A stretch of DNA of 64,000 bases, taken from NCBI RefSeq assembly GCF_021513215.1, contig NZ_CP090975.1, forward strand, positions 613,501 through 677,500, read 5' to 3'. The number at the start of each line of letters is the position of its first letter. Within the stretch, counting starts at the first letter, position 1. The translations under genes and the position numbers were made by a program. Shown piece by piece: positions 7,584 through 62,009 of the stretch. Origin of the DNA: Suttonella sp. R2A3. GTDB taxonomy: Bacteria; Pseudomonadota; Gammaproteobacteria; Cardiobacteriales; Cardiobacteriaceae. Under the pieces are notes generated by a model. That model ran no database searches, was not told the DNA's origin, and worked only from the letters and a program-made list of their open reading frames with translations.

Positions 7584-8626
7584 ATATCGCGATTGTCAGT
7601 GACGCCTGGCATCCTCAAGTTAATGGCGTTGTACGCACGCTTACACAAACACGCCGTGCCTTGCTTGATCAAGGCGACAATGTATTGATGATCACCCCCG
7701 ACCAATTTCGCACCTGGCCTTGTCCAACCTATCCGGAAATCCGTTTGGCTCGCGGTGCAAAACGCCGCGTTGCTACTCTACTCGATGAATTTTCTGCTGA
7801 TGCCATTCACATCGCCACCGAAGGACCACTCGGTTGGGCGGCACGCCGGTATTGCTTGCGTCACAAACTCTCGTTTACGACCGCTTATCACACCCGTTTC
7901 CCTGAATACATCCATACCCGTTTTCGCCTACCACTAAGCATCGGTTATGCGATCATGCGCCTGTTCCATAAGCCATCGGTGCGGGTGATGGTTCCTACCG
8001 AAGGTATTGGCAAAGCACTCAATGCACGTGGCATTGAGCACACGGTAATTTGGGGCCGCGGTGTGGATACTGCGCGGTTTTATCCCGGTGAGCGCAATGC
8101 ATTAGAGCCCATGATGCGTGACGAAGAACGCGCACGTCCTACCTTTGTCTATATTGGTCGCGTGGCGCCGGAAAAGAGCATCGAAGCGTTTCTTAAACTG
8201 GATTTACCCGGCAGCAAATGGGTGATAGGTGATGGCCCTGCAAAAGCCACACTTGAAGCAGCCTATCCTGAGGTGCATTTTCTCGGCGCGTATCCGCAAA
8301 AAGAACTGCCGCCATTTTACCGCGCAGCCGATGTGTTCGTGTTTCCCAGTAAAACCGATACCTTTGGCTTGGTGCTGCTCGAAGCAATGGCGTGTGGCAC
8401 ACCGGTGGCGGCGTATCCGGTTGAAGGGCCTATAGATGTAATTAGCGACCCTAAAACCGGTGCGTTAAATAAGGATTTAGCGCAGGCCTGCTTAGACGCA
8501 CTCGCGCTAAATCGCGACGACTGCGCAGAATTCGCCGCTGCGCACAGCTGGCTGGAAACGACGTTGCGTTTTCGTGTGTTACTCGAACCATTTATTGCCC
8601 AGGCACCACTTGCGGAAACACATTGA
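7580..8626 (+). CDS. agt: Family 4 glycosyltransferase (Agt-like diacylglycerol glycosyltransferase)
   Basis: GT-B fold retaining glycosyltransferase of 348 residues. It begins IVSDAWHPQVNGVVRT, typical of SqdX/Agt-type enzymes, has HTRFPEYIH in the acceptor domain, and GRVAPEKSIEAF plus the donor-site block FPSKTDTFGLVLLEAMACG with the EX7E motif. Known: Agt proteins transfer glucose or glucuronate to diacylglycerol, making phosphorus-free glycolipids. Inferred substrate: the diacylglycerol released by PlcP. Translation is coupled to plcP through ATGA. There is no membrane span, so it should be a peripheral inner-membrane enzyme. Confidence 0.8.
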   Translation: MNIAIVSDAWHPQVNGVVRTLTQTRRALLDQGDNVLMITPDQFRTWPCPTYPEIRLARGAKRRVATLLDEFSADAIHIATEGPLGWAARRYCLRHKLSFTTAYHTRFPEYIHTRFRLPLSIGYAIMRLFHKPSVRVMVPTEGIGKALNARGIEHTVIWGRGVDTARFYPGERNALEPMMRDEERARPTFVYIGRVAPEKSIEAFLKLDLPGSKWVIGDGPAKATLEAAYPEVHFLGAYPQKELPPFYRAADVFVFPSKTDTFGLVLLEAMACGTPVAAYPVEGPIDVISDPKTGALNKDLAQACLDALALNRDDCAEFAAAHSWLETTLRFRVLLEPFIAQAPLAETH

Positions 8627-8652
8627 TTAGGCTTTAAATCCCTAATTTTTTT
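8626..8652 (+). terminator. Rho-independent terminator after agt
   Basis: A short stem ATTAGG (8626-8631) pairs with CCTAAT (8641-8646), followed by a run of T. It overlaps the agt stop codon and the 3' end of the convergent MetE-like gene. Confidence 0.5.
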
Positions 8653-9722
8653 GCCGCTAACTGCGCACCAGCTACACGGGCGCGTATTTTTTCAAACGCC
8701 CATTCACGTGTGGTGGTTAAATCATTGCAAAATGGCGAATAACCACAGCATTCTGACACCCCTGGCACCTGCCCAAGAATATCGCTCGCCAACACAATTC
8801 GTTCGGCAATCCGTGTCGGTAATTCAATCTCTTTATTCAGATGCGACACAAAACCTAAATACACGAATTTATTGCCGATATACTCTTTAATACAATGCAG
8901 GATCGATTCGAACTCTCGCTCACCTAAGCTGGCAAATGGAAAATGGAAATTCTGAATCTTCGATTGCAATAACACAGGATAAATTTCAGCGTAATTACTG
9001 TAATTATGGTTGGTGAAATTATCCGCACCAAAGCAAGTATGTAGCGTTACTGCTTGTAATTCTTGCGGCGTGAGTTTATCGCATACCTGGTTCACTAAAC
9101 CGACCATTTGTTTGAGTAACGCCCCGCTACTATCCACTTTCTGAGCATAAGTAGCCTCGGTCATATCCAAACCCACTTCAGAAGCACCAGCAGCAATGGC
9201 TTTTTTAATATCTTTAGCACATTCATTCACCAAATCTTCGGTAAATTGCGCTTTGCTATAGCCTTCAATTTCATCAACATAAATCAATGATACAGCTGAG
9301 GGAGAAATGACTGTGGCTTTAAACGGTTTGTTGCTGTATTTTTTTAGCACTGGCAGCCATTCATCGCTGTAATGAGCAAATTTAAACGGCGTTTGTTCTT
9401 TCTGTAAAACTGCCATTTCTCGCGAATGGTGCCCTTCAAAATCGATCACAAACCCTTTTTTGTCTTTAGGATTGGGTTCACCAAGTTTAATAAATCCTTG
9501 CTCAAGGAAATACGTGAGAAAATTGGGCTTTTCCACCTCACCAGAAGTAATGATCGGATTGCCATCAATCTGTTCGTAAGTCTGAACAACGTCTTTAATT
9601 TCTTTCTCGATTAAACGATCGAGCTCAGACTTAGCCAACTGCCCATCCGCATAAGCGGCATAGGCGGCTTGTAATTCCGCAGAACGTGGCAAACTACCAA
9701 CTGGGGTTTGTTTAATAGACAT
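8634..9722 (-). CDS. MetE C-terminal-like cobalamin-independent methionine synthase family protein
   Basis: A 362-residue protein similar to the catalytic C-terminal barrel of MetE, without the N-terminal half found in the 750-residue enzyme. Seen: TPVGSLPRS at the start, GEVEKPNF, the zinc-ligand type motif LHTCFGADNF (His and Cys), and PGVSECCGYSPFC near the end, providing a further Cys ligand. Known: such short homologues include archaeal-type methionine synthases and several poorly characterised methyltransferases, so the methyl donor cannot be read from sequence. The start at 9722 is chosen because GGAG lies 6 nt upstream; an ATG four codons earlier overlaps that site. Single gene with its own likely promoter. 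Confidence 0.8.
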   Translation of the reverse strand: MSIKQTPVGSLPRSAELQAAYAAYADGQLAKSELDRLIEKEIKDVVQTYEQIDGNPIITSGEVEKPNFLTYFLEQGFIKLGEPNPKDKKGFVIDFEGHHSREMAVLQKEQTPFKFAHYSDEWLPVLKKYSNKPFKATVISPSAVSLIYVDEIEGYSKAQFTEDLVNECAKDIKKAIAAGASEVGLDMTEATYAQKVDSSGALLKQMVGLVNQVCDKLTPQELQAVTLHTCFGADNFTNHNYSNYAEIYPVLLQSKIQNFHFPFASLGEREFESILHCIKEYIGNKFVYLGFVSHLNKEIELPTRIAERIVLASDILGQVPGVSECCGYSPFCNDLTTTREWAFEKIRARVAGAQLAAKKLGI

Positions 9723-9765
9723 AATTTGCTCCATTAACGATGATTAAAAATGGTTAACCAAAATG

Positions 9766-9771
9766 ATTATA
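9766..9771 (-). promoter_or_regulatory. Likely -10 element of the MetE-like gene
   Basis: TATAAT on the minus strand, preceded by GGC, about 45 nt upstream of the start. No convincing -35 is seen. Confidence 0.35.
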
Positions 9772-9902
9772 GCCAATTTTTCCTACAAAATCATAGTGCA
9801 AAAGAGAATACTTTTATGTCAATCCGCTTTTAGTTTCAGGCAATCATGTTACCTATCAAGCTGAGTCGTTAATGGCCCATGAACTGTACAGCGTCAAAAC
9901 GG

Positions 9903-10751
9903 TTAATTCGTGAACTGTATATTATCGATCAAACGTGTACGGCCAAGCTTTGCCGCAACAAGCAGCACAACCGGTTCACAGATATCCGTTGCGGGCATCA
10001 AATCGCTTTGCTGGCGCAGTTCAAGGTAATCCACCACAAACCCTTTTTGGGTTAAGCGCTCTTTGGCCTGTCTTAGCGTACGCTCAATATCCTCACCAGC
10101 ACTAATCGCGAGCTGACTTTGCTGCAACGTACTGTGTAAAACTGGCGCGATTGCGCGCTCAGTCGTGCTTAGATATTGGTTACGCGAGCTCATCGCCAAA
10201 CCGTCTTCAGCGCGCACTGTTTCCGCACCAACAATCTCCACTGGTATATGCAGGTCTGCGACCAAACGACGAATAATCCACTGCTGCTGGAAATCTTTTA
10301 AACCAAAAACGGCGTATTTTGGCTCAACTAAGTGAAACAAGCGTGAGACGACTGCAGCCACGCCTTGGAAATGCGTCGGACGATTCACACCACACAAGAT
10401 CTTGGTGAACACATCAGGTAAGGTAAAGCCAATCGCGTTGTCTTTACCAAATGGGTAGATTAGCCCGTCATCAGGCATAAACACCGCAGCAATACCAGCC
10501 GCCTCAAGCTTTTCGATATCTTCTTTTGGCGTGCGTGGGTAGCTGTCTAAATCTTCGTTTACACCAAACTGCGTAGGATTCACATACACGGAAGCCATCA
10601 CACAATCCGTAACCGTTAACGCCTCATCAACCAGCGATAAATGCCCATCATGCAAATTTCCCATCGTCGGCACTAACGTCCACGACGCACCAGCATCACG
10701 CTGATTGAGCTTCCATTCGTTTAAGCTTTTGAGGTCTTTAATCACGCGCAT
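9903..10751 (-). CDS. panC: Pantothenate synthetase (pantoate-beta-alanine ligase)
   Basis: Joins pantoate and beta-alanine with ATP to give pantothenate. The 282 residues equal the E. coli length (283). The nucleotide-binding HIGH-like block TMGNLHDGHLSL, the segments YVNPTQFG and FGLKDFQQ, and SSRNQYLS (KMSKS-like) are present. The ATG at 10751 has GGAG 6 nt upstream and overlaps panB by 14 nt; a longer in-frame reading inside panB is not used. Last visible gene of the pcnB-folK-panB-panC operon; panD is not seen downstream. Confidence 0.96.
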   Translation of the reverse strand: MRVIKDLKSLNEWKLNQRDAGASWTLVPTMGNLHDGHLSLVDEALTVTDCVMASVYVNPTQFGVNEDLDSYPRTPKEDIEKLEAAGIAAVFMPDDGLIYPFGKDNAIGFTLPDVFTKILCGVNRPTHFQGVAAVVSRLFHLVEPKYAVFGLKDFQQQWIIRRLVADLHIPVEIVGAETVRAEDGLAMSSRNQYLSTTERAIAPVLHSTLQQSQLAISAGEDIERTLRQAKERLTQKGFVVDYLELRQQSDLMPATDICEPVVLLVAAKLGRTRLIDNIQFTN

Positions 10752-21374: not shown

Positions 21375-23126
21375 ATGAACAAACAACCATCTAAATCTTT
21401 CTCACATTGGCATATTATCGCCCCTGTCAAAAAAACAATTTATTTTGCCATGGCAGTTGCCGTGCTTGCAGCGGCATGCGCTTTATTCACAATGTTGTTG
21501 CTGGCGGGGTTAATCCGCCAGTTAATCGCCCAACCCGATACAGTGGCATGGACGTGGTTTTTGACGGCATTGCTTTTTGCTATTTTTGCTTATATTTTTC
21601 GTAGCCTGTCCTTCAAGTATTCACACTTAGCAGCCTTTGCTTTGGAACCAATTTTGCGTCGGCAGATTAGCGATCATTTAGTACAAGTTCCTTTAGGGAC
21701 ACTCAGCGAACAAGGTAGTGCTGCGCTAACCAAGGTTATTCAGGATGATGTGCGTGATTTACACGCTTTTGTCGCCGATGCCACACCTTTGTACGCCCGC
21801 GCTTATGCTGCACCAATTTTCACTATATTATTGCTGTTTGTCTTGGATTGGCGCTTGGCGCTGGTGGCTCTGGCAGTGTTGATTATCGGTATGTTGATTT
21901 TAAGTCTGGCGATGAAAAATGCCAATGAAACACACCACCGCTACAATAAAGCGCGTGAAACCGTCAACCAAGCAGTTATTGAATTTGTCCAGGCCATGCC
22001 CGTGGTGCGTACTTTTGACGGTGGCCGCGCCTCGTTTGGTCGCTACGAACAAGCCTTGGATCGCTATCTTGAAGTGCTGACTGGCTGGTACAAACAAAGC
22101 GGCCCACCAGCGAAATTGTCCATGATAATACTCAATCCTATGCCGACCTTGATTGTTTTGTTGTGGGCGGGCTGTTACTGGCTGTGGCAAGATAGTCTGT
22201 CATTTAGCACATGGTTGGCAGTGCTGCTTCTTGGCACGGGCATGGCGGAAGCATTGATGCCTTATATGGCGCTCTATCATCTGATTGACAAGGCAAAAAT
22301 CAGCATTCACCGCATTACGGACGTACTGCATTTACCGCTGCTACCGATTACTGACACACCACAAGAGCCTCAAGATGCCTCAGTTGTCTTTGAAGCCGTC
22401 GATTTCCGTTATGGTAATCGCACTGAAAACGCCTTGAGCGATGTCAGCTTCAGTGTACCATCGGGCAGTTTTACCGCCTTAGTGGGGGCATCAGGTGCAG
22501 GTAAAAGCACCGTAGCACGCTTACTGCCGCGTTTTTGGGATGTCACAAGTGGCAGCATTAAAATCGGCGGCGTTGATGTGCGCGATATATTGCCTGAGGT
22601 ATTGATGCAACAAGTGGCGTTTGTCTTTCAAGATACGTTTTTATTTTCGGGCAGCATTGCCGAGAATATTCGTTTAGGATTACCCGACGCCAGCGATACA
22701 GCGGTAATCGCAGCAGCACAATCGGCACAGGCGCATGAATTCATCAGCCAATTGCCGCAAGGCTACAAAACGCAAGTGGGTGAACGTGGTGCCAGTTTGT
22801 CGGGAGGGCAGCGTCAACGCATCGCCATCGCCCGTGCTATCTTGCAAAACCGGCCAATTTTGCTGCTCGACGAGGCAACTGCCTTTGCCGATGCCGAGAA
22901 CGAAGCATTGTTAATGAAAGCCTTGCACACATTGATGCAAGGCAAAACGGTTCTGATGATTGCCCACCGCCTGGCAACCATCCAACATGCCGAACAAATT
23001 TTGATGTTCGCCGACGGACACCTGGTGGAAGCAGGTAAACCGGAGACTTTGCTTAAACAAGGCGGGGCATATGCCGAACTCTGGCAAGCCTACCAAAGTG
23101 CACAAAACTGGACAATTAGGAATTAA
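21375..23126 (+). CDS. Half-ABC transporter, exporter fold (IrtA/YbtP type), first of a pair
   Basis: 583 residues: an N-terminal six-helix membrane domain (about 20-310) and an ABC ATPase domain. Walker A GASGAGKST is near 371, signature LSGGQ near 475 and Walker B ILLLDEATAFAD after it; the D-loop reads AFAD rather than ALD. Known: paired exporter-fold transporters such as YbtP/YbtQ and IrtA/IrtB import ferric siderophores. The Fur-like site, the interposed hydrolase and the matching second half-transporter support a metallophore role. Export of a small molecule cannot be excluded. There is no good ribosome site before the ATG. Stop and next ATG are adjacent. Confidence 0.8.
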   Translation: MNKQPSKSFSHWHIIAPVKKTIYFAMAVAVLAAACALFTMLLLAGLIRQLIAQPDTVAWTWFLTALLFAIFAYIFRSLSFKYSHLAAFALEPILRRQISDHLVQVPLGTLSEQGSAALTKVIQDDVRDLHAFVADATPLYARAYAAPIFTILLLFVLDWRLALVALAVLIIGMLILSLAMKNANETHHRYNKARETVNQAVIEFVQAMPVVRTFDGGRASFGRYEQALDRYLEVLTGWYKQSGPPAKLSMIILNPMPTLIVLLWAGCYWLWQDSLSFSTWLAVLLLGTGMAEALMPYMALYHLIDKAKISIHRITDVLHLPLLPITDTPQEPQDASVVFEAVDFRYGNRTENALSDVSFSVPSGSFTALVGASGAGKSTVARLLPRFWDVTSGSIKIGGVDVRDILPEVLMQQVAFVFQDTFLFSGSIAENIRLGLPDASDTAVIAAAQSAQAHEFISQLPQGYKTQVGERGASLSGGQRQRIAIARAILQNRPILLLDEATAFADAENEALLMKALHTLMQGKTVLMIAHRLATIQHAEQILMFADGHLVEAGKPETLLKQGGAYAELWQAYQSAQNWTIRN

Positions 23127-23933
23127 ATGAATCAATCATCGGTTTCACTTTCTTACTGCGAATATGGTTGCAAAAACGGCTTTCCCGTGTTGCTGCATCA
23201 TGGGCTTGTCGGTAGTGATTATCTACCTCCACATTGGCATAATCTGGCCAAGACAGTCGGCATAAAGCTTATCGCCGTAGCACGCCCGGGCTATGCACGC
23301 TCTCCTGTGCAAAATATGTCAGCGATAATTGATTGGGGAGACATCATCGCCCCACTATTGGATGATTTAGGGGTAACAAATCAATTTGCCACTATCGGGA
23401 TTTCTGCCGGCGCACCTTATGCCTACGCCCTGGCAAATCATTTCGCAGAACAATGTCATGGAGTCTGGGTGTTAAGTGGTATGCCTTTTGTCGCTGATCC
23501 ACACATTTTCGCCTTATACCCAGCAGCGGCAAGAGCCATTTATCAACAATTTGCCGAATTGACCGATGATGAATTGGCCATGCAGATGCGTGGATACCTT
23601 GAGAACACTCTTAGCGAAGCAACAGCAGATGCCGAATTAACACACTTGATTGACGACACTTTATGCCATGATGGGCAGGGAATAGTACGCGAAATACGCT
23701 TACAAACCGCACCCTGGGGATTTTCCCCTTATGATATCACCTGCCCAATCGAACTTTGGCACAGCCGAGAAGACGACGAGGTTCCTTTTGCCGCCGTTCA
23801 AGCAATGGTTGGACAAATGCGCAATGCCATACTGCACATCCAAAAAAGCGCGTCACACTTTCCTGATAACCACAGTGAACAAGAATTATTCAATTCAATG
23901 TCAATACGTTGCCATAGTCGAGGAAATCAATAA
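23127..23933 (+). CDS. Alpha/beta hydrolase between the two half-ABC genes
   Basis: Cytoplasmic alpha/beta-hydrolase of 268 residues without signal peptide. Seen: oxyanion-hole segment HHGLVGSDY, nucleophile elbow GISAG with Ser93, an acidic residue in HSREDDEVPF (about 216) and His244 in SASHFPD, giving a plausible catalytic triad. It begins directly after the upstream stop and shares one base with the next ATG (TAATG), so it belongs to the transporter operon. Inference: hydrolysis of an ester or lactone in the imported siderophore to release iron. Substrate unknown. Confidence 0.75.
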   Translation: MNQSSVSLSYCEYGCKNGFPVLLHHGLVGSDYLPPHWHNLAKTVGIKLIAVARPGYARSPVQNMSAIIDWGDIIAPLLDDLGVTNQFATIGISAGAPYAYALANHFAEQCHGVWVLSGMPFVADPHIFALYPAAARAIYQQFAELTDDELAMQMRGYLENTLSEATADAELTHLIDDTLCHDGQGIVREIRLQTAPWGFSPYDITCPIELWHSREDDEVPFAAVQAMVGQMRNAILHIQKSASHFPDNHSEQELFNSMSIRCHSRGNQ

Positions 23934-25696
23934 TGGATAACAGTACCCTACAGAGGCGCACCACTTCTTTTCGTGAGCTTTATCGAATGGTATGTGCCGC
24001 CGCCGGCGCACAAGCACCACTCATACGTCGCAGCTTATTGTTAGGTATCATCACCGCCGTATTGCGTGGTGTGGCGTTCGTCGGTTTTACCCCTTTATTC
24101 TTCGCACTGCAACAACAACTGTGGAGACAGGTATTGCTATGGTTATTGGCCATGACCGCTTTGCTGTTGCTGTCGAGCATAAGCGATTGGTTTAGTCGTA
24201 ATTACGATCATAACGGCCATGCCGCCAGAGCTGGTGATGCCCTGCGCCGAGCATTGGGGCAACATTTACGGCGCATGCCGTTACAGGCCTTATACCGCAA
24301 ACGCTCAGGCGAGCTTAATGCAGCAATTGCCGGAGATGTCGATGACGTACTCAATTACAGCATGACCGTAGGATTGATGTTGATTAACGCTGTGGTCACA
24401 CCCATCGCTACTGGAATCGGGACGCTTTTTTTTGACTGGCGTCTGGCTGTGGCACTGCTCTTGGTATTCCCTGCGGTGTTGCCCATTTTCTTATGGGTAC
24501 GACCACTACTGTCGCGTCATAAGCAAGTGTTAGCCGATGCCAACGCCAATTTAAACGCCGAAACAGTAGAATACACTCAGGGATTACCCGTACTCAAAGC
24601 AGCGGGCTGCATTGGTGACAAGGCAGCGCGTTTCCAGCAAGCAGTGCGCGCGGTAGAAACGGCACAAATCACCGCCATGCGCGAAGAAGCACCGGCCAAT
24701 ATTCTGCTGGCATCAGTGGTGGAAATCGGCATCTTACTGATTGTTGCTCTGGGATTATGGCTGGTGAGTAACGGTGATATCGGTTTAATGGTTCTTGCCG
24801 GTTTGATGGTCGCTGTAGTACGTTTTGCCGAACCGCTGAGCATGTTTATCGGCATGAGTAATATTTTCATCATGGTGGAAAATGGCTACCACCGTCTGCA
24901 GGTATTGCTTGATATTGCCCCATTAAGCCTGCAGCAACCGCAACAAATACCGACCCGCTATGATATTACCTTTGATGCACTGACATTCTGCTATGCCGAG
25001 CATGACGAACCCGCGCTAAAAGATATTTGCCTGAATATTCCCGAGCACGCCCTCACTGCGCTGGTTGGTTCATCAGGCTGCGGCAAAACCACACTCATTC
25101 GCATGCTGATGCGTTACGCCGACCCACAGTTCGGCAGTGTACACATCGGTGGTATTGATATTCGTCGGATTGAACCAGAAATACTGAATCGTCTGATCGC
25201 CGTAGTGTTTCAAGACGTGTATTTATTCGACGACAGCATTCTCGCCAATATCCGTATGGGACGCGGCGACGCAACGGATGAAGAAATTTATGCCGCAGCT
25301 AAAGCCGCCCATTGTCATGACTTTATCAAGCGCCTGCCACAAGGTTATGATACCCGCGTCGGTGATATTGGTGGCAACTTATCAGGTGGTGAAAAACAGC
25401 GTATTTCCATCGCCCGGGCGTTACTCAAAGACGCACCGATTATCATCCTTGATGAACCCACCGCCGCGCTGGATACACAAAGCGAGTTGGCGGTACAACA
25501 AGCTATCGACGCACTGGTTCGCAATAAAACCGTCATAGTGATCGCCCATCGTCTTTCCACCATCGTCGCTGCACAGCAAATAGTTGTCCTTGATGAAGGA
25601 ACAGTACTCGAAACCGGTACCCATCAGAACCTGCTCGATAAAAATGGCCGCTACGCCAAATTGTGGCGGATGCAGCAGTATGTTCACGCAGCCTGA
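23933..25696 (+). CDS. Half-ABC transporter, exporter fold (IrtB/YbtQ type), second of a pair
   Basis: 587 residues with the same plan as the first: membrane domain (about 25-320) and ATPase with Walker A GSSGCGKTT near 378, signature LSGGEKQR near 483, Walker B IIILDEPTAALD and H-loop IAHRLST. The canonical ALD here against AFAD in the partner suggests a heterodimer with one modified nucleotide site. Translationally coupled to the hydrolase. A siderophore-import heterodimer is the best reading from context. Confidence 0.8.
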   Translation: MDNSTLQRRTTSFRELYRMVCAAAGAQAPLIRRSLLLGIITAVLRGVAFVGFTPLFFALQQQLWRQVLLWLLAMTALLLLSSISDWFSRNYDHNGHAARAGDALRRALGQHLRRMPLQALYRKRSGELNAAIAGDVDDVLNYSMTVGLMLINAVVTPIATGIGTLFFDWRLAVALLLVFPAVLPIFLWVRPLLSRHKQVLADANANLNAETVEYTQGLPVLKAAGCIGDKAARFQQAVRAVETAQITAMREEAPANILLASVVEIGILLIVALGLWLVSNGDIGLMVLAGLMVAVVRFAEPLSMFIGMSNIFIMVENGYHRLQVLLDIAPLSLQQPQQIPTRYDITFDALTFCYAEHDEPALKDICLNIPEHALTALVGSSGCGKTTLIRMLMRYADPQFGSVHIGGIDIRRIEPEILNRLIAVVFQDVYLFDDSILANIRMGRGDATDEEIYAAAKAAHCHDFIKRLPQGYDTRVGDIGGNLSGGEKQRISIARALLKDAPIIILDEPTAALDTQSELAVQQAIDALVRNKTVIVIAHRLSTIVAAQQIVVLDEGTVLETGTHQNLLDKNGRYAKLWRMQQYVHAA

Positions 25697-25903: not shown

Positions 25904-26402
25904 ATGTCAGCTTGGTCAGATGGTTATGTTAGCGATATCGATTATACTTAAGGCTATTACACCGATCTTACCCCCACTAGGTTACCTTGCCTTTTTGATG
26001 ATTAGTCTGGCGCCACCAAAAACAGGCACCGCCTGCGAACTCAGCTTTGGTCAAGGCGTATCGGTCAACACACATGCCACAGCCGGTAATGCAAGCTGGT
26101 AGGGAACAGATTTTAATCCCGCACATGTTGGGTTTGCCCAAGAGCTAGCCGAACAAAACCTACTCTATTTAGCGCACGAATACTTTAACCGCGATTGGCA
26201 TCCGGTGTATTTCGCCGAAATGCAAAATTGGCTTGATGAAGTTAAGGTAAGTTACGCCTGTTCATCAAATTATCTCGATGATTTTGTGCCATGTTTATTT
26301 GATGACAAACAACAGGCATTTTTAAATCAAATAGGTGACCCATCATTTACGCAAACCGCCAAAGCTTACCTGCTTAATAAACAATTTCGCCGCGATTATT
26401 GA
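25904..26402 (+). pseudogene. Decayed SAM methyltransferase with regulatory domain
   Basis: Reading the strand across frames gives MSAWSDGYVSDIDYT, a stop, then GYYTDLTP, a frame change near 25995, TGTACELSFGQGVSVNTHA, a TAG where an aromatic residue is expected before GTDFNP, and then LAHEYFNRDW and YACSSNYLDD, ending at a stop after NKQFRRDY. These blocks occur in this order in intact class I methyltransferases with a methyltransferase regulatory domain, but the catalytic middle is deleted between AEQN and LAHEYF and the C-terminus is cut. At least two stops, one frameshift and one large deletion make this a dead gene. Confidence 0.8.
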
Positions 26403-26462
26403 ATCAAAGCCCTATAAAACCAACCCAATTGTCTTAATTTTTAAAACTTGACCCAAGTCAAT

Positions 26463-26489
26463 TTGAATGATTCTCATTTAGAGTATAAT
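26463..26489 (+). promoter_or_regulatory. Fur-box-like site and -10 upstream of the receptor operon
   Basis: TTGAATGATTCTCATTTAG (26463-26481) matches the Fur consensus at about 11 of 19 positions with a strong core (AATGAT, TCATT). TATAAT (26484-26489) follows at once, so a bound repressor would cover the promoter. A second related sequence (GAACGATTCTTAT) begins at 26492. Confidence 0.55.
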
Positions 26490-26527
26490 GCGAACGATTC
26501 TTATATTGAAATATATTGGAGTGTCCT

Positions 26528-28402
26528 GTGTCGCGTTATCCTTTGCCTTTAGCAATTTCCCTTGCTTGCACTTCTGTACTTGCTGAACCGTTATTTGATA
26601 TTGACCCGCAAGCCTACGGCATGCATAAATCTTTTGGTCCACCACCGCCAATCACCCCGGCAAATGTTCTTGATGCTAACGTAGAAAATCAATTCAAGCA
26701 GAGCAGTGTTATTCATACAGGAACAACACGCAGCATTGATGATCGTATCGATAAACCAGCACACCTTACCCTTAGCCAACAAGGTAAAAATAGCTATCTT
26801 GGCGCATTGTGGCGACAACGCGAGGCCAATTATTATGTGATCGGTAGTTTTGCCTACGCAAAGGCCAATGACTACCGCGATGGTAATGGTGATAAGGTGG
26901 ATTTCGGCTACACCCGTGACGGCGAAGCATTGATCCTGGGTTGGTTACCTAATACGCAATCCGAACACCGCATAACCTTGCTGCGTGACCATATTGCTGA
27001 TGACAAACAGCCACAACATGTTATGGATCCTGTGAGTACGCGACGCTTGATCGGCAAATATAACGCACGCTTCGGTGCTCAGGATGAAAGCAATACCTTA
27101 CATACCGAATTAAGCGTGGTGGATTTATCACGAACAGCCAATAATTTTGATCTGCGTACGCACACAGCAGGTACGCCTAAAGTGATGATGGATGTCTCAC
27201 GGCGACAATATCTCGCCGATGTGTACTACCGTTTTCGTTTTAACGATAACCAGCAGAGCAGTATCGGCGTCAGCTATCTACATGATGTCCATGATGCCCA
27301 GCGCTCAGTGCTCACACCGATGGGAAAGAAAGTTAATGGCTACCGCTTTCCCGATATTCAAAGTGAACGCTGGCGAGTTTATGCCGCCCACCAATGGCAG
27401 CCCAGCGACGCACAAACCTTAAGCGCCGCCATCAATTACGATTGGCAAAAAGCACACACTAAAGCGATCAATACTGCGATGGATGTGCCAGGTGTTCCTA
27501 CGGCTGGCAAGCTCTGGCAAACTTATTACAACAAACCTTTTTCTGGGACTATCCGCCAACAAGGTTTAAGCGGCAAACTACGCTATAGCTACGAATTTGC
27601 CCCACAGCAAAAAATCTATGCGCAAGTAGAGAGCCTTTATCGTATGCCGGAAAACCCTGAGCGTTTTGCTGTACTCGCCGGTCCACCAGGAAAAGGTTGG
27701 GGTGGTAATCCATGGCTAAAACCAGAGCGAGAAAACCGCCTTACCTTAGGCGCATCACTCAGTGGCGCAGGCTGGGGAGATTATCAACTCGCTAAAGAAG
27801 ATAATTTTGCCGCCTCCTGGCAAGTTGATGGCGCGCTATTTATCGCCGATGTCGATGATTTTATTACCTTGGATCGCTACCGTGGCCCTAAACCCCCATT
27901 ACAAGGCAACCTCATCAGCCGCAATGTTGATGCACGTTTAGCAGGTGCCGATTTGCGATATCGTCAGAATTGGAGTCATCGTCTATCCACCGATGTCGGC
28001 ATCCATTATCGCTATGGTGACAACCGCAGCGACCAGCGTCCGCTCTACCAAATCGCACCGTTTAGTGCCAATTTCAGCGTTGATTGGCGTGATTATTTCT
28101 CCGGTGGCAGTTATTCACTGGGTTCACGCCTGCGCTACGTACACAAACAAAATCGTTTGGACGACAATCCAACAACCGGTTTGGGTATCGATTTAAGCGA
28201 CGCCGCGCAAAGTTTCACCACTGTTGATGTCTATGGCGGGGTTGAATGGAAAAACCGTTTTGGCATCAGCTTAGGTGTGGATAACATTTTTGATAAAAAC
28301 TACGCTGAACTCATCAGTGGCAATCATGTCGAGGCGGTTAGTCCGCGCTTGGTGAACGCGCCGGGACGAAATTACTGGCTTCGATTTAATGCCAATTTTT
28401 AA
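26528..28402 (+). CDS. TonB-dependent receptor-like outer-membrane barrel apparently lacking the plug domain
   Basis: 624 residues with a signal peptide cleaved after about Ala19 (SVLA/EP). The barrel resembles OprC/NosA-type copper receptors; the C-terminus has GVEWKNRFG, LGVDNIFDKNYAE and a terminal Phe for Bam insertion. Unusual: amphipathic barrel strands begin near residue 78, so only about 60 mature residues precede the barrel where a plug of about 130-150 is normal, and no TonB box is evident. The GTG at 26528 has GGAG 6 nt upstream. A Fur-like site precedes it and two genes follow closely, 11 nt and 12 nt apart. The ligand is unknown; a metal or metallophore is likely. Confidence 0.75.
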   Translation: MSRYPLPLAISLACTSVLAEPLFDIDPQAYGMHKSFGPPPPITPANVLDANVENQFKQSSVIHTGTTRSIDDRIDKPAHLTLSQQGKNSYLGALWRQREANYYVIGSFAYAKANDYRDGNGDKVDFGYTRDGEALILGWLPNTQSEHRITLLRDHIADDKQPQHVMDPVSTRRLIGKYNARFGAQDESNTLHTELSVVDLSRTANNFDLRTHTAGTPKVMMDVSRRQYLADVYYRFRFNDNQQSSIGVSYLHDVHDAQRSVLTPMGKKVNGYRFPDIQSERWRVYAAHQWQPSDAQTLSAAINYDWQKAHTKAINTAMDVPGVPTAGKLWQTYYNKPFSGTIRQQGLSGKLRYSYEFAPQQKIYAQVESLYRMPENPERFAVLAGPPGKGWGGNPWLKPERENRLTLGASLSGAGWGDYQLAKEDNFAASWQVDGALFIADVDDFITLDRYRGPKPPLQGNLISRNVDARLAGADLRYRQNWSHRLSTDVGIHYRYGDNRSDQRPLYQIAPFSANFSVDWRDYFSGGSYSLGSRLRYVHKQNRLDDNPTTGLGIDLSDAAQSFTTVDVYGGVEWKNRFGISLGVDNIFDKNYAELISGNHVEAVSPRLVNAPGRNYWLRFNANF

Positions 28403-28413
28403 AGGAGTAACTC

Positions 28414-29388
28414 ATGCATAGAAGACAGTTCATTCAACGCAGCGGTTTGGGATTGCTTGCTAGCCAGCTGCCCCATTGGAGTTTTGCCGCCGATTCGCCA
28501 CTGCAAACTGTTTGGGGCGCACCGGTAGCGCCGAGTGTCTTACTCGGCGTGGCAGCCAGACAAGGTGCTTTACATCGCAAGCATCCCTATTCGGTCAAGA
28601 TTTGGAAAACACCGGATCAATTACGCGCCGGGCTGGCTAATGGGTCAATGCCGGTAACCATGGTGCCGAGTTATGTCGGTGCTAATGTTGCCAATCGCGG
28701 GCAGGATGTTGTGTTGTTGAACATCATGACCTTTGGTTTACTACAAATGGTTGCGCGCGATATGCCAATGAATAATCTTGGTGAGCTGGAAGGTAAATCG
28801 CTGGTGATGCCGTTTAAAAACGACATGCCTGATTTGGTGTTACAAATTCTCTGCAAACGTGCCGGGGTTGATTTCGACAAAATTACCGTTCAATACGTCG
28901 CCACCCCACCGGAAGCACTCACATTATTCCTTAAAAATCGCGCCGACTATGCGTTCTTACCTGAGCCACTCACCAGCGTAGCGATTATGAAAGGTAAACA
29001 GAGTGGGCAAAATGTTGTGCGTGTGCTCGATTTCCAGCAAGAATGGGGACGCATCATGAATGGCCCGTCACGCATCCCACAAGCAGGAATGCTCATTGAT
29101 CGTGCGTTTTATGCCGAACACCAGACCATTATCGACCAATTACACGAAGATATTGCCAGTGCTGTGGTGTGGACACAAGAAAATCCACAAAGCGCTGCGG
29201 AAATTGCCTCGGCCTATTTACCCGTACCCAAGCCAATTCTTAGCACAGCCCTGCCTCACGCCAACTTAACGGCGACTCGCAGCCAGGATATCAGCGAAGA
29301 AATCATGCTGTTTTTCGAAGAAATGTATGCCCTAAACCCGAAAATTCTTGGCGGGAAAATGCCAAGTGACACCCTCTTTCATTTATAA
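28414..29388 (+). CDS. Tat-type periplasmic ABC substrate-binding protein (NMT1/SsuA-like)
   Basis: 324 residues. The N-terminus MHRRQFIQRSGLGLLASQ is a twin-arginine signal (RRQFIQ) with cleavage near Ala25. The rest fits the NitT/TauT-type binding-protein fold: VVLLNIMTFGLLQ, ELEGKSLVMPFKND, PEALTLFLKNRADYAFLPEP. Such proteins normally have a permease and ATPase beside them; none is here, the only transporters nearby being the exporter-fold pair upstream. Export by Tat suggests folding or cofactor binding before secretion. It probably binds the ligand passing the outer-membrane barrel encoded upstream. Ligand not deducible. Confidence 0.75.
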   Translation: MHRRQFIQRSGLGLLASQLPHWSFAADSPLQTVWGAPVAPSVLLGVAARQGALHRKHPYSVKIWKTPDQLRAGLANGSMPVTMVPSYVGANVANRGQDVVLLNIMTFGLLQMVARDMPMNNLGELEGKSLVMPFKNDMPDLVLQILCKRAGVDFDKITVQYVATPPEALTLFLKNRADYAFLPEPLTSVAIMKGKQSGQNVVRVLDFQQEWGRIMNGPSRIPQAGMLIDRAFYAEHQTIIDQLHEDIASAVVWTQENPQSAAEIASAYLPVPKPILSTALPHANLTATRSQDISEEIMLFFEEMYALNPKILGGKMPSDTLFHL

Positions 29389-29400
29389 AGGTAAATTGAT

Positions 29401-30219
29401 ATGACTCATAAAAATACGCTTAGCATTTTAGCTGCTGCCCTACTTTACGCTCAAAGCGCCACCGCTGCTGATTTAGCAGCAGGTGAAAGTTATCCAAGTT
29501 ATTACCCAGATGCCGGACGTATTGTGGTTAAAGATGTCATGACACGATTTTTTAATGTTAGTGATAAAGGCATCCTGAGCTACGGCATGGAAGATGCCGC
29601 CAAAGCCGCCGGACACGTTTGCCCAGCTGTCACTGGCGCATTCCTCATAACACAAGCCGGTGTTGACGCACTGGCACAATCGTATCGTGAACAACCCAGC
29701 ACTGCGGAAGTCTCTTCTTATGATCCTGCAGACGATATGCTCTATCGTGGTGGTATTAAAATCACCATGAGCGGCCAAGCCGATACCGGGAGTGCGGCAA
29801 ATGCGATGGCAAATGTAATGAGCTACATCACCGGAGCAAAAGACGCTTCCGGCTTTAAAGGCGGGCCAGATTTCCCTTTCGCCAACCGGCAAAATTTACT
29901 ACAACACGACCCGAATCTATCATTTGACGGAAAAACAGGTATTGAGGCTATTTTTACCTCAATGACAGCAACCTACAGCAAAGAAGATGGCAGCCCAGCA
30001 ACCTTAGCTGAGTGTCAAGGAACCTGGCATCAATGTATAGAGCGCACTAGCTGTGACCGTTCGGTAAAAGTTACTTACCATTTCAAATCGCCAGAGATTA
30101 TCGGCAACAACCCCGATGCACGCTGGGATGAAAAAATCCACCATATCATCAACCAACGTGATGTAGCCATCAACGTAGAACCTGTAGACAATCCAGCAGC
30201 GCTATGTAAGAGCCTATAA
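29401..30219 (+). CDS. Periplasmic FmdE-like protein
   Basis: 272 residues with a Sec signal peptide (cleavage after about Ala22, SATA/AD). The mature protein contains AAGHVCPAVTGAFLI (His72, Cys74), the hallmark of the FmdE family (formylmethanofuran dehydrogenase subunit E-like), followed by RGGIKITMSGQADTGS and TGAKDASGFKGG. Cys205, Cys212, Cys218 and Cys269 add four more cysteines. Known: FmdE-like proteins bind metal, but most bacterial members have no assigned function. Third gene of the receptor operon, 12 nt after the binding protein. Inference: a metal or metallophore handling protein. No zinc-finger tail as in archaeal FmdE is evident. Confidence 0.65.
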   Translation: MTHKNTLSILAAALLYAQSATAADLAAGESYPSYYPDAGRIVVKDVMTRFFNVSDKGILSYGMEDAAKAAGHVCPAVTGAFLITQAGVDALAQSYREQPSTAEVSSYDPADDMLYRGGIKITMSGQADTGSAANAMANVMSYITGAKDASGFKGGPDFPFANRQNLLQHDPNLSFDGKTGIEAIFTSMTATYSKEDGSPATLAECQGTWHQCIERTSCDRSVKVTYHFKSPEIIGNNPDARWDEKIHHIINQRDVAINVEPVDNPAALCKSL

Positions 30220-32302: not shown

Positions 32303-32716
32303 ATGAGCCAACAAATTAAAAAAGCCGGTTTGAAGGTCACTGGACCACGCATGAAGATCCTCGAAATCATGGAACGTGAGACCACAGAAAATGATGTGCA
32401 TCTCAGCGCTGAGGAAGTGTATAAAATTCTCTTAAAGGCCGATGAAGATATTGGTTTGGCCACCGTGTATCGCGTACTGACCCAATTCGAACAAGCAGGT
32501 ATCCTAAAACGCCACAATTTCGAAGGCAACCATAGTGTGTTCGAGATGGATAGTGGCAACCATCATAACCATTTAATTTGTGTTAAAACCGGTAAGGTGG
32601 TCGAATTCCATGACGAAGTCATTGCCAAGCGACAAAAAGAAATTGCCGAACAATACGGCTTCACCCTTGAAGATCATTCGCTGGTGCTTTACGGCATTTA
32701 TCAGGGCGATGAATAA
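32303..32716 (+). CDS. fur: Ferric uptake regulator Fur
   Basis: Iron-responsive repressor, 137 residues. The N-terminal winged helix (GLKVTGPRMKILEIM, GLATVYRVLTQF) and dimerisation domain with the His-rich GNHHNHLIC are intact. The CxxC zinc knuckle is reduced to one cysteine: Cys93 is present but position 96 is Thr (CVKTG), and there is no C-terminal cysteine pair. Pseudomonas-type Fur proteins also lack these, so function is not in doubt. Probable regulator of the two iron-uptake loci in this window, whose promoters carry Fur-like sites. Confidence 0.96.
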   Translation: MSQQIKKAGLKVTGPRMKILEIMERETTENDVHLSAEEVYKILLKADEDIGLATVYRVLTQFEQAGILKRHNFEGNHSVFEMDSGNHHNHLICVKTGKVVEFHDEVIAKRQKEIAEQYGFTLEDHSLVLYGIYQGDE

Positions 32717-35052: not shown

Positions 35053-35919
35053 TTATTTCGTAGTCGATGATTGCCCATGTATCAGTGCTGAAGGTGTCAC
35101 CCCAAAATGGCGGCGAAAAGCCTGAATAAAGTTTGAAGGATGGCGATAACCACAGCGATAAGCGGTTTCCCCAATACTCAGACGATCCTCGCCAAGTGCA
35201 CTTAGCGCCCGTTGCATACGCGCATTTTGCAGCCACTGCTGCGCCGAACACTGAAAATATTCTCGCACCTTACGCTGCAAGGTGCGCGATGAGATATGCA
35301 AGTGTTCCGCCACCATGTGCACTTCCACATTGCCTTGGGATAACACTTCATCGAGTGCCCGGCATAATAGCTCCCGCTGCGGCTGATAGTCCGTTGATTT
35401 AGTCGCGCTTTGTCCTGCTAAATCACAAGCATAACGCTGCCAGCAATCATGAAGCAAAGCAATCGCCTGCATGTCTTGCTCGAGTGCGTGCGGTTCATTG
35501 TGTTCGAGCAACTGATCGGCGCGTTGTTGCAACCGTTCATCGAGTGGCCATTGACGGACGGTTTGCTGATGCAGTGTACGATCATACGGATCAAACCAAC
35601 GCTCTAAGCCGCTTAGTGTCAACTTACGTACCGCTTCACCGCAACACAGATGACGGCTAAATAATTGCGTTTGACCCACGCTGATCATTATAGCTGTGCC
35701 CTGCTTACCGGCTTCGACATGATAGGCTTCTTGTCCGAGATTAAATCGCACGCTGCCACGCAGTAGCAACACAAAGGCAATATAAGGACTAACCAATTGA
35801 TGAAAGCTACAATCCTGCTGCGCGCAGAACTCACCACCATGGATACGGATGCCACTGTGGAGCTGGTTAAACTGATAATCTTTGTTCAAAATAGGGGCTA
35901 TTGGTGTTGTGTCGTTCAT
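35053..35919 (-). CDS. AraC-family transcriptional regulator (PchR/YbtA-like)
   Basis: 288 residues. A C-terminal pair of helix-turn-helix motifs occupies about 190-285 (VEVHMVAEHLHISSRTLQRK, then GETAYRCGYRHPSNFIQAFR, FGVTPSA). The N-terminal region (GSVRFNLGQEAYHVEAGKQG) resembles the cupin-like part of siderophore-responsive regulators. It is divergent from a TonB receptor gene with a Fur-like site between them, the arrangement of PchR, YbtA and related activators that sense ferric siderophore. Likely function: activation of the receptor and esterase genes. Effector unknown. Confidence 0.85.
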   Translation of the reverse strand: MNDTTPIAPILNKDYQFNQLHSGIRIHGGEFCAQQDCSFHQLVSPYIAFVLLLRGSVRFNLGQEAYHVEAGKQGTAIMISVGQTQLFSRHLCCGEAVRKLTLSGLERWFDPYDRTLHQQTVRQWPLDERLQQRADQLLEHNEPHALEQDMQAIALLHDCWQRYACDLAGQSATKSTDYQPQRELLCRALDEVLSQGNVEVHMVAEHLHISSRTLQRKVREYFQCSAQQWLQNARMQRALSALGEDRLSIGETAYRCGYRHPSNFIQAFRRHFGVTPSALIHGQSSTTK

Positions 35920-36014: not shown

Positions 36015-38128
36015 GTGTATCACAAACTTAGCCTTATCACCTTAACTGCTGTTATCAGCGCCAATATCTACGCACAAGCCCAACAAAACAATAGTAAATC
36101 CTCTCGTTTAGATGCGATTACTGTTGAAGGAAACAGCTTATATGGCGTCTTGCCCAGCGAAGGTAGCAATTCTTATACGTTAGAAGCAGCCACCGTGGGC
36201 ACAAAAATCCCCGCATCGGTTCGTGATATCCCACAATCTGTAAGTATTATCACCCAAAAAGCGATTCGCGACCACAATGCCAACACTTTTGATCGCTTAG
36301 CCGCGAAAACGCCAGGGTTGCGCGTTTTGGAAAACGATGAAGGTCGTTCATCTGTGTACGCCCGAGGCTACGAATACGATGAATATAACGTCGATGGCTT
36401 ACCGGCTCAAATGCAAAGTATCAACGGAACGCTCCCCTCATTAGCAGCATTTGACCGTGTGGAAGTTATGCGCGGACCATCAGGATTATTTAACAGCGCT
36501 GGTGAAATGGGGGGATTGTTAATTTTGTCCGCAAACGCCCTACCCACGATTTCTCCGGCAATGTAGAAGCCATGGGCGGTAATTTTGGCCAATATCGTTT
36601 AGGCGCAGACGTGGGGGGCGCACTCAATAGCAGTGGTAGTGTTCGCGGACGCGCATTAGTCAATGCCAATGGCGTTACGCCAGAAGCCTCCGATGGACGT
36701 AACCATACAGAAGTCTTCTATGGTGCGCTAGATATTGATCTCGCTGAGCGTACCACGCTTGGTTTGGGTTATCTCTATCAAATGCGTAACCTAAGAGCTG
36801 ATAACGGCCTACCAACGGCTGATAAAAATGGCAGGTTATTACCACTACCTAATAATGATTTTTATGGCACTGATTGGAATGATTTTTCGATGCACAGTCA
36901 TGATGTGTTCGCCGATCTTAAGCATGAATTCGACAACGGTGGCTATGGTAAAGTTGGCCTGCGTTATTCCGATCGTAGCAGCGAGATGAATTATGCATTT
37001 AGCGGAACGAATCTTAAGCCCAATGGCAGTTTTACCGGTTCCGGTTTTGGGGGCGATGTGCAACAACAAGCCTTTGCTTTTGATACCAGCTACAGTCAGC
37101 CGTTTGCTGCCTGGGGTAATGTCAGCGAATATGTGATTGGTGCGGATATTAACCGTATGACCACCCAAACCCAACGAGGACGAGCAAAATTCCCTAATAT
37201 GACCCTTGATAGCCTGCACAATCTACCACAGCGCGACATCTTAGATATTGCACGTACCAGTGGCAAAGGCTATAGCAACATGGAAGAAACGCTTACCGAT
37301 TACGGTGTGTACGGCAAGCTCACCTTACGCCCCATCCAACCGCTTGCTATCATAGTTGGTGGACGCTTAAGTCATTGGAATATTGAGGCTCAAGATCACG
37401 TCAAAAAGAGCGAACAGAGCCGCAGCGAGAGTGCACGCTTTACCGGCTATGGTGGTGCTGTCCTCGATATCAACGATAACCACAGTCTCTATGCCAGTTA
37501 CTCATCGCTTTATAGCCCACAAACGTCGTTGGATAAAAATGGCAATATCATGAAGGCTCGCCAAGGCCAACAATATGAAGTAGGTATTAAAGGCAGTTAC
37601 GCCGGTGATCGCCTGCAAACACGCCTGTCCTTATTCCAACTCACCGACCGTCATGCTGAAGCACCAGTACCCAATGAGAATTATAGTGCGGCAATCGGCA
37701 AACGAACGGTTAAAGGGATTGAAGCGGAAATCAATGGTGAAATCACCCCGCAATGGACCATCAGCGCTGGGTATACCCACCTGAAAACCGAAGTTGATTT
37801 AGAAGGTGATCGTCAAGACGGCTTTTTCCTACTCATGCCGCGACATAGTGGCAACCTTTGGACAACCTATAAAGTCAACGATCAATGGACTGTTGGTGGC
37901 GGTATTACGGCGATGAGTGGCTTCGAATCTTCGCAAAAAGTAAGCACTTCAGGTTATGCAACCGTTGACGCCATGCTTGCCTATAACGTTAATGATAACC
38001 TACACGTCCAGTTAAACATCAACAATCTACTTGATCGCAACTACTACAAGCGTGTGGGTTCAAAAGGCACCTTTAATATGCCAGGTGAAGGACGCAGCGT
38101 TACTACCAGCCTGCGCTACGACTTTTAA
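36015..38128 (+). pseudogene. TonB-dependent siderophore receptor interrupted by a frameshift at a G6 run (possibly phase-variable)
   Basis: Two frames together encode a full receptor of about 704 residues. The first part (36015-36566) has a signal peptide (cleavage after about Ala20), TonB box DAITVEG, and plug blocks VRDIPQSVSIIT and FDRVEVMRGPSGLFNSAGEMGG. The second (from about 36514) resumes as IVNFVRKRPTHDFSGNVEAM and the whole barrel, ending NNLLDRNYYKRVG and a terminal Phe. The frame changes within ATGGGGGGATT (G run 36509-36514): seven or four Gs would restore reading. This is a FhuA/FpvA-type siderophore receptor gene, either off, mutated or misread. GTG start with GGAG 6 nt upstream. 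Confidence 0.85.
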
Positions 38129-39009
38129 TGTTGTTACGACTATTCGCTATTTTGGCTATGTTGTGGCTAACCACCCAAACGATCGCAGCCGCCTCTTGGC
38201 GGCCAGCGACTTTATCTGGTGTGGATGAAACCATACTGCACTCCAGCCACACCGAGCGCGATTACCGTATTCAAATCGCCGCCATTGGCAAACAACCGGC
38301 ACAAGGTTATCCCGTTTTGGTCTTACTTGATGGCGATTTAATGCTGCCGCTTGCCGCACTAATGATGCAATCACTGTCTTTTCAGCCGTATTATCAACAA
38401 GGCATTTTACTGGTTGGCGTAGGCTATCCCGGTGGTAATCTCTATGACCTTGAAGCACGAGCAAAAGATTACACCCCGCCCATTCAAGACCACAGCACAG
38501 ACGGAAAATATGGTGGTGGTGCTGATTTTCAGCAATTTATCACCCAGGAATTATTCACAGAAATCAGTCGGAACTATCCAATCAACCGCAATAAAACCGC
38601 GCTCATGGGCCATTCTTTCGGTGGCTTATTTGCCTTATATAACCTTTTTAACGACGACAAGACGTTTCAAAGTTATCTGATTGCCAGTCCATCAATTTGG
38701 TGGGCTGAGCAGCGCATTTTGGCCGATGAAGGCAAACGACAAAACGCGCCAGCGTTTATCCGCTTGAGCGTTGGCGAATACGAACAGGCATCAAATCCAC
38801 AACATCCTGACAGTCGCGAACAAGCGGCGAAAAAGCAGGCGCGACAAATGGTTGATCAGGTAACCGTACTCACTGAGCGCTTACAAAACCGCTTTCCTGA
38901 AGCAGTAATTAGCAACAAAATTTATGCCGAAAAAACACACGGATCCGTCATCCCAAGCAGTCTTCAAGATAGCGTCATTGCGCTATACGATTATTGGTAT
39001 CGTGACTAG
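38128..39009 (+). CDS. Periplasmic alpha/beta hydrolase, IroE/Fes-type siderophore esterase
   Basis: 293 residues with an N-terminal signal sequence (LFAILAMLWLTTQTIAAA). Esterase-D-like fold: LVLLDGDLM, VGVGYPGGNLYDLEARAKDYTP is the substrate-side region seen in IroE and related enzymes, nucleophile elbow GHSFGG with Ser163, and a His in KTHGSV near the end. Its ATG shares one base with the receptor stop, so the two are coupled. Inference: it cleaves the ester backbone of a tricatecholate-type siderophore in the periplasm after uptake by the upstream receptor. Confidence 0.82.
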   Translation: MLLRLFAILAMLWLTTQTIAAASWRPATLSGVDETILHSSHTERDYRIQIAAIGKQPAQGYPVLVLLDGDLMLPLAALMMQSLSFQPYYQQGILLVGVGYPGGNLYDLEARAKDYTPPIQDHSTDGKYGGGADFQQFITQELFTEISRNYPINRNKTALMGHSFGGLFALYNLFNDDKTFQSYLIASPSIWWAEQRILADEGKRQNAPAFIRLSVGEYEQASNPQHPDSREQAAKKQARQMVDQVTVLTERLQNRFPEAVISNKIYAEKTHGSVIPSSLQDSVIALYDYWYRD

Positions 39010-61923: not shown

Positions 61924-61953
61924 TGTTTTGATCCTTGTTTAACGTATACTGAG

Positions 61954-61985
61954 TATTAAACACCTTGTAGTAACTACAAGGTCAA
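61954..61985 (-). promoter_or_regulatory. MerR-type promoter with operator dyad
   Basis: On the minus strand TTGACC (61985-61980) and TTAATA (61959-61954) are separated by 20 nt, the over-long spacing that MerR-family proteins correct by twisting DNA. A perfect dyad lies in and beside the spacer: ACCTTGTAG (61962-61970), TAA, CTACAAGGT (61974-61982). It should drive the P-type ATPase. Confidence 0.85.
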
Positions 61986-62009
61986 CCCTTAACAATCACG
62001 GTGTGTTTG

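Follow-up and report, generated by a model that had tools for sequence, protein, structure and literature searches.

An operon for a plug-less outer-membrane barrel, a binding protein and an FmdE-like protein in Suttonella as the candidate outer half of an importer linked to nitrogen-oxide respiration

A stretch of 64,000 nucleotides (hereafter the window) from the genome of Suttonella sp. R2A3, a member of the family Cardiobacteriaceae whose genome is a single contig of 1.99 Mb, carries three adjacent genes which encode an outer-membrane barrel with no detectable plug domain, a substrate-binding protein (SBP) and an FmdE-like protein. Relatives of the SBP recur in other genomes beside the permease and ATPase of an ATP-binding cassette (ABC) transporter, the membrane protein NnrS and an outer-membrane barrel; the host genome encodes such an ABC pair in a second locus; and both NnrS and copper nitrite reductase (NirK) co-occur with the SBP. 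The reading preferred here, which is held tentatively and given somewhat less than an even chance, is that the operon would encode those parts of a scavenging importer which lie in the outer membrane and the periplasm, and that this importer would feed nitrogen-oxide respiration, with chelated copper as its cargo. Chelated copper is favoured because of NirK, NnrS and the ancestry of the barrel. The passage of copper across the outer membrane to periplasmic copper enzymes is poorly known, and the pathways by which bacteria acquire copper are still little characterised (PMC12914433). A conserved set of receptor, SBP, ABC transporter and NnrS whose occurrence follows that of copper nitrite reductase is a concrete, testable candidate for copper uptake; it also places NnrS in the context of a transporter and offers a clue to the function of exported FmdE-type proteins.

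The three genes (Table 1) have open frames in one direction and are separated by intergenic gaps of 11 and 12 nt, which bears out the tight spacing claimed in the first-pass annotation of the window, and they probably share a single transcript. A gene identified by eye as ftsY-like begins 94 nt past the FmdE-like gene.

Table 1. Coordinates of the operon and its putative operator in the window
Feature	Position	Strand	Remarks
Plug-less outer-membrane barrel, kin of the OprC/TIGR01778 C-terminal barrel	26528..28402	+	GTG start, 624 aa (amino acids); Sec-type signal peptide by eye
SBP, NMT1/SsuA type	28414..29388	+	324 aa; twin-arginine signal; paralogue at G000:C1:1328640
FmdE-like protein	29401..30219	+	272 aa; Sec-type signal peptide by eye; H72/C74 (HVCP) and four other Cys
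Two direct 23-nt copies of a Fur-like operator	26460..26509	+	From a repeat search; just 5' of the barrel gene

The barrel protein matches PF00593 (1.3e-26) over residues 114-587 and has no Pfam match to Plug (PF07715) at E<=1, so that its description as an outer-membrane barrel of the receptor type stands as far as the barrel is concerned, while the plug of TonB-dependent transporters is undetected. The model for the TonB-dependent copper receptor, TIGR01778, scores 194.8 bits against it, below the cut-off of 472.45, and aligns only from profile position 140 onward, to the end; this model is the best NCBIfam match, below cut-off, in all three plug-less barrels scanned (those of the window, L137 and L139). 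The closest relative of solved structure is OprC (E 1.2e-18), which is aligned only from its residue 230, and a single-sequence structure model of the barrel has a mean predicted local distance difference test score (pLDDT) of 28, too low for the pore to be viewed. Plug-less relatives lie directly 5' of the SBP gene in four other Cardiobacteriaceae (G003, G004, G007 and G011), and intact plug-less barrels stand beside the SBP in G198, a near relative of the gonococcal locus (639 aa, 37% identical to the window barrel), and in G388, a more distant proteobacterium (653 aa, 25% identical). A search at E<=0.01 found no Plug in any of these six relatives, the L137 protein having no Pfam match at all, and Plug was present in all seven scanned receptors that occupy the barrel slot elsewhere. 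Judged from sequence, the recurrent plug-less barrel is the unusual and surprising part of the gene set, since a conserved natural TonB-receptor barrel without a plug departs from the rule of the plug-closed barrel.

The absence of the plug, together with a locus that has no ABC genes and the broken genes nearby (the siderophore receptor at 36015-38128), is also what would be seen if the operon were decaying, with a receptor bereft of its plug and an SBP orphaned by loss of its ABC partners, both functionless. This account is very improbable: the frames are intact, the four other Cardiobacteriaceae barrels are 38-41% identical to that of the window with many invariant columns, intact plug-less versions exist in G198 and G388, and the ABC genes are retained in trans.

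The binding protein had been described as NMT1-type and exported by the twin-arginine translocation (Tat) pathway. An RR pair is present at the N terminus of all 14 aligned relatives, the window protein included, and kinship to NMT1 is detectable; what does not hold is a firm family assignment, because every match is weak and misses its curated cut-off, both in Pfam (NMT1, 16.2 against a cut-off of 20.5; NMT1_2, 16.8 against 24.7; the MqnA-type model VitK2_biosynth, 21.2 against 26) and in NCBIfam, where the best match is SsuA_fam (36.5 against 163.5). Relatives of the SBP were followed in 28 loci, comprising the window, L113-L128, L137-L142, L021, L035, L094, L103/L162 (one locus) and L105, of which L103/L162 and L105 are visible only in part; a weak SBP match in G052 (L107, E 6e-9) was excluded, and six of the 66 plasmid records with SBP matches were inspected. 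An ABC permease and ATPase adjoin the SBP in 19 of these 28 loci, and NnrS is close in 17 of the 19, being missing in L142 and beyond the end of the stretch in L162. An outer-membrane barrel protein lies near the SBP in 17 of the 28, of which eight are of the plug-less kind (including a split gonococcal gene that had no Plug scan) and nine contain a plug (the seven scanned and two from Bosea assigned by similarity). The nine loci without adjacent ABC genes all belong to Cardiobacteriaceae, and the mapped positions of the permease there show that it is located away from these loci. In a tree of 25 SBP rows, the window SBP falls in no starred clade with barrel-linked or ABC-linked copies.

Two further loci deserve description. 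In the gonococcal locus (L113, 7018-8938) the barrel gene is broken over two frames, with SBP, permease, ATPase and NnrS genes downstream, and in its near relative L137 the barrel is intact. In a Cardiobacteriaceae genome (L122, G004), a copy of the SBP lies without receptor or ABC genes amid genes that look phage-like by eye.

The missing partners are encoded in the host genome 0.69 Mb from the operon, at a second locus (about G000:C1:1.3286-1.3323 Mb) with the order SBP2-permease-ATPase-NnrS, after which comes a D-lactate-dehydrogenase gene. The window SBP and SBP2 share 51% identity, and the genome has two NnrS genes. The genome thus holds, in trans to an SBP of the conserved family, a permease, an ATPase and NnrS, and the earlier statement that the binding protein lacks permease and ATPase is correct for the operon locus and incorrect for the genome. 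The permease was found in eight of 12 Cardiobacteriaceae genomes, namely seven of the eight that carry the SBP and G006, which has no SBP; the SBP carrier without it is G011, an assembly that is 86% complete. In G003, G004 and G009 the permease and ATPase lie together and distant from any SBP of the same genome, and delivery in trans would therefore be usual there. Because the ABC genes lie in a second locus of its own genome, and likewise elsewhere in Cardiobacteriaceae, the window SBP most probably works with the trans-encoded ABC pair. The operon had been presented as a self-contained set with an orphan SBP, a view that found no support: it looks instead like one part, the outer half, of a more extensive receptor/SBP/ABC/NnrS system.

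The association of this system with nitrogen-oxide respiration was evaluated at equal settings in sets of 299 genomes sampled evenly across the phylum (thresholds: SBP, E<=1e-30; NirK, TIGR02376 at E<=1e-60; NnrS, E<=1e-15; FmdE-like, E<=1e-10), using hypergeometric p-values, which are blind to shared ancestry. Positive genomes numbered seven for the SBP (the host included), 43 for NirK, 160 for NnrS and 41 for the FmdE-like protein. NirK is present in six of the seven SBP genomes, compared with 43 of 299 overall (p 4e-5), and in five of six when the host genome is removed (p 2.4e-4); the corresponding figures for NnrS are seven of seven compared with 160 of 299 (p 0.012) and six of six (p 0.022). 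The host itself has NirK at 459 bits (cut-off 296) and CcoN at 694 bits (cut-off 583), and a nos_propeller search for NosZ gave no match in the host genome, nor in any of 14 controls. A metal or organometallic ligand was suggested at first pass, and a cargo of metal or metal chelate is plausible in view of the NirK and NnrS found in SBP genomes.

The third gene had been assigned to the FmdE family, with one motif Cys and four more. The protein has exactly five Cys, and its HVCP motif belongs to a site, HxCP, which we take to be a mark of FmdE: all 80 aligned sequences have H72 and C74, and P75 is invariant. The assignment is upheld by this motif and by homology, and not by a Pfam match of the protein's own to FmdE (PF02663), which was not found; in an alignment of 12 homologues, ten match PF02663 at E<=0.1 (best 6e-7), and those without a match are the window protein and one other. 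A search against the sequences of solved structures gave no useful match, and an AlphaFold model (pLDDT 70) has FmdE as three of its top five structure matches, at E 0.077-0.68, none of them significant. Among the four extra Cys, three are found in one of the 80 sequences (the window protein alone) and C218 in four of the 80. A signal peptide is visible by eye in the window protein and in its relatives from G007, G010 and L043, and several other relatives have none.

Eighty FmdE loci were kept out of at least 566 confirmed matches, many of them on short contigs. In Paracoccus denitrificans (L116), one strand carries in a block a TonB receptor, an Rrf2-type regulator, FmdE, a DUF1971-like protein, SBP, permease, ATPase and NnrS. 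FmdE also adjoins the receptor/SBP block at three loci in Bosea, there in divergent orientation. Because FmdE, SBP and receptor recur together in Paracoccus and Bosea, the neighbourhood survey proposed in the first-pass annotation shows an association that is not purely random, and it is not fixed either. Elsewhere, the FmdE relative follows nirK on two Azospirillum plasmids, follows moaA behind nap genes in Sulfuricurvum, and lies beside a metal-domain protein and a P-type ATPase in Haloarcula. Neighbours were counted over 146 of 155 adjacent open reading frames (ORFs), the last nine (L094-L098) being left out, with longest-frame calls of which some are surely spurious; the commonest, at four of the 146 ORFs each, were haemerythrin, Crp/Fnr-type regulator domains and cbb3-type cytochrome c. 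FmdE is often found among denitrification or nitric-oxide genes, yet it is not a fixed partner, and the proposal that it is a constant companion of the SBP was rejected on the basis of three loci in 80 and the diversity of neighbour families.

At 7414-10618 of the Allofranklinella locus L043, a receptor that contains a plug is followed immediately by an FmdE-like protein whose leader, judged by eye, resembles a twin-arginine signal. This receptor was considered as an OprC-type copper receptor and rejected, since its best score is to the haemin model.

Under the preferred reading of a chelated-copper importer, the ligand would cross the outer membrane through the plug-less OprC-type barrel, and the Tat-exported SBP would capture it and hand it to the ABC permease and ATPase of the second locus; the secreted FmdE-like protein may bind the metal or the complex in the periplasm via its HxCP site, and Fur-type operators would probably govern expression. 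The purpose would be to supply a scarce cofactor, most likely chelated copper, for copper nitrite reductase and NnrS. A bolder extension, which we regard as unlikely, is that the plug-less branch of TonB receptors could be a TonB-independent, ligand-selective channel dedicated to one SBP, with FmdE stripping or holding the copper in the periplasm ahead of import, and that it would represent an undescribed copper-chelate pathway of bacteria that respire nitrite, with counterparts in Neisseria.

Several observations weigh against the importer of chelated copper as proposed. The copper site of OprC consists of C143, M147, H323 and M325 in a CxxxM-HxM arrangement (PMC8610252); C143 and M147 fall in the N-terminal part that is absent from the window barrel, and H323-x-M325 aligns with R202-x-A204. 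The FmdE component is loosely attached: the SBP lies within 4.5 kb in only three of the 80 FmdE loci, all of them from Bosea, and in none farther out, no neighbour family exceeds four of the 146 ORFs, the surroundings of most FmdE relatives are unrelated, and FmdE is present in three of the seven SBP genomes compared with 41 of 299 (p 0.057), or two of six without the host (p 0.19). One SBP genome of the seven, G178, has no NirK, and kinship among genomes does not enter the p-values. The remaining points concern the cargo, and each of them favours a particular alternative.

The SBP alignment contains no invariant His, Met or Cys, and the SBP is therefore unlike a binder of bare copper; in addition, the second-locus proteins (SBP2, permease and ATPase) are similar to transporters for sulfonate, taurine and nitrate, the permease matching SaoP, TauC, SsuC and NtrB and the ATPase matching PhnT2, SsuB-type and NtrCD models. 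These features, with the SsuA_fam match and the MqnA and NMT1 types of the window SBP, are those expected if the cargo of the same importer were the precursor of a cofactor or a small organic anion, akin to a sulfonate, nitrate or a pyrimidine, NnrS and NirK being adjacent because the compound is used when denitrifying. The organic-anion cargo is nevertheless judged less likely than chelated copper, although it is the alternative to be taken most seriously: the curated cut-offs of the sulfonate- and nitrate-type families are all missed by far, the copper-haem protein NnrS is a recurrent companion, and receptor-type barrels, which are unusual for such small solutes, lie near the SBP in 17 of the 28 loci.

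The seven plug-containing receptors scanned have their best scores with models for siderophores, haemin or PqqU and not with the copper model, with all of these NCBIfam matches below cut-off and six of the seven being to siderophore or haemin models. This pattern is compatible with a Fur-controlled route for iron, haem or a ferrisiderophore that would mend the iron supply under nitric-oxide stress, NnrS relieving iron-NO damage, as are the Rrf2-type regulator which stands beside the set in Paracoccus and is annotated likewise in Chelatococcus, the proximity of fur and of a siderophore receptor/AraC/esterase cluster, and the tandem Fur-like boxes of the operon. The two copies of the latter, at 26460-26482 and 26487-26509, are 74% identical with a spacing of 27 and straddle a TATAAT -10-like box at 26484-26489, and the window has a single instance of the palindromic core AATGA-N3-TCATT, at 26466. 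The Fur-like promoter of the first-pass annotation is thus supported by its boxes and not by scoring, since the region upstream of the window operon reaches 12/19 against the plain 19-mer Fur consensus, a score matched by 37% of 300 shuffles and hence no better than chance, and a sigma-70 scan called no promoter at the tandem boxes. For these two reasons Fur-type control of the barrel operon is kept at likely. The same scoring, which covered the upstream regions of 11 loci, was mixed overall: gonococcal L113 and its near relative L137 reach 14/19 (shuffle fraction 0.03), L123 and L119 13/19 (0.03 and 0.04), L128 13/19 with none of 300 shuffles as good, L120 13/19 (0.06), and L125, L127, L139 and L124 10-12/19 (0.33-0.84). 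Apart from the chance-level Fur score, the iron route is opposed by the SBP and permease, which have no match to haem or siderophore transporter families, and by the co-occurrence with copper nitrite reductase, a comparison outside which the iron or haem families lay; it is rated slightly less likely than the organic anion.

The fur gene itself lies at 32303-32716, about 2 kb 3' of the operon (NF006999, 181 bits, above cut-off). A FauA-like TonB siderophore receptor at 36015-38128 is broken into two frames, the second piece matching TIGR01783 at 210 bits, slightly under cut-off; it is adjoined by an AraC-type regulator (35053-35919) and by a gene at 38128-39009 with a weak enterochelin-esterase match. 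Directly 5' of the operon, 26000-26415 is by eye a methyltransferase-like remnant with an in-frame stop inside, and before it, at 21375-25696, two fused membrane-ATPase ABC transporters flank an alpha/beta hydrolase, in what is presumably the layout of the IrtAB/YbtPQ siderophore importers. At 59677-62453, a His-rich gene that reads by eye as a P-type ATPase for metals lies next to a MerR-like regulator in divergent orientation.

The first-pass annotation knew of no described system of this composition, and none was found in the literature searched, although the recurrence of related sets means that the operon is not an isolated novelty. In that literature, which covered few subscription journals, there was no description of the SBP-ABC-NnrS-receptor set and none of a natural plug-less TonB receptor, the one paper with the term "plugless" dealing with an engineered barrel (PMC10994204). 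There, an engineered plug-less FpvAI sits in the outer membrane, and a soluble plug supplied in trans partly restores uptake; plug loss in FpvAI is a laboratory deletion, whereas the window barrel is natural, is conserved in several lineages, and has no separate plug gene found in its locus. NnrS has been described under nitric-oxide-responsive control with nir and nor genes, in a paper whose main text mentions neither ABC nor TonB (PMC1274295).

Among the known systems, OprC/NosA (TIGR01778) is like the window operon in its homologous C-terminal barrel, the best match of solved structure, and NosA is linked to denitrification (PMC8610252); the window barrel differs in having no plug, 195 of the 472 bits, no CxxxM-HxM site, and an SBP and FmdE as partners. 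CrtA of Bordetella is similarly an outer-membrane barrel in a short operon, in this case for chelated Cu(II) that serves a respiratory copper enzyme, and it has a plug and a PepSY_TM partner (PMC12914433); no PepSY match was found in the two genes downstream of the window barrel. SBP, FmdE and NnrS partners do not appear in the available descriptions of either system (PMC8610252, PMC12914433), and the main text of the CrtA paper mentions none of FmdE, NnrS and ABC. Methanobactin uptake by MbnT/MbnE, likened here by its description, also combines a TonB receptor with a periplasmic binding protein, for a copper complex (PMC7558416, PMC12914433). Importers of the SsuA/TauA/NrtA type share the superfamily of SBP, permease and ATPase, but the window system misses their family cut-offs and has receptor, NnrS and FmdE companions. 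An importer built from a receptor, an SBP and an ABC transporter is of a known kind, and the recurrent plug-less barrel is its unusual part.

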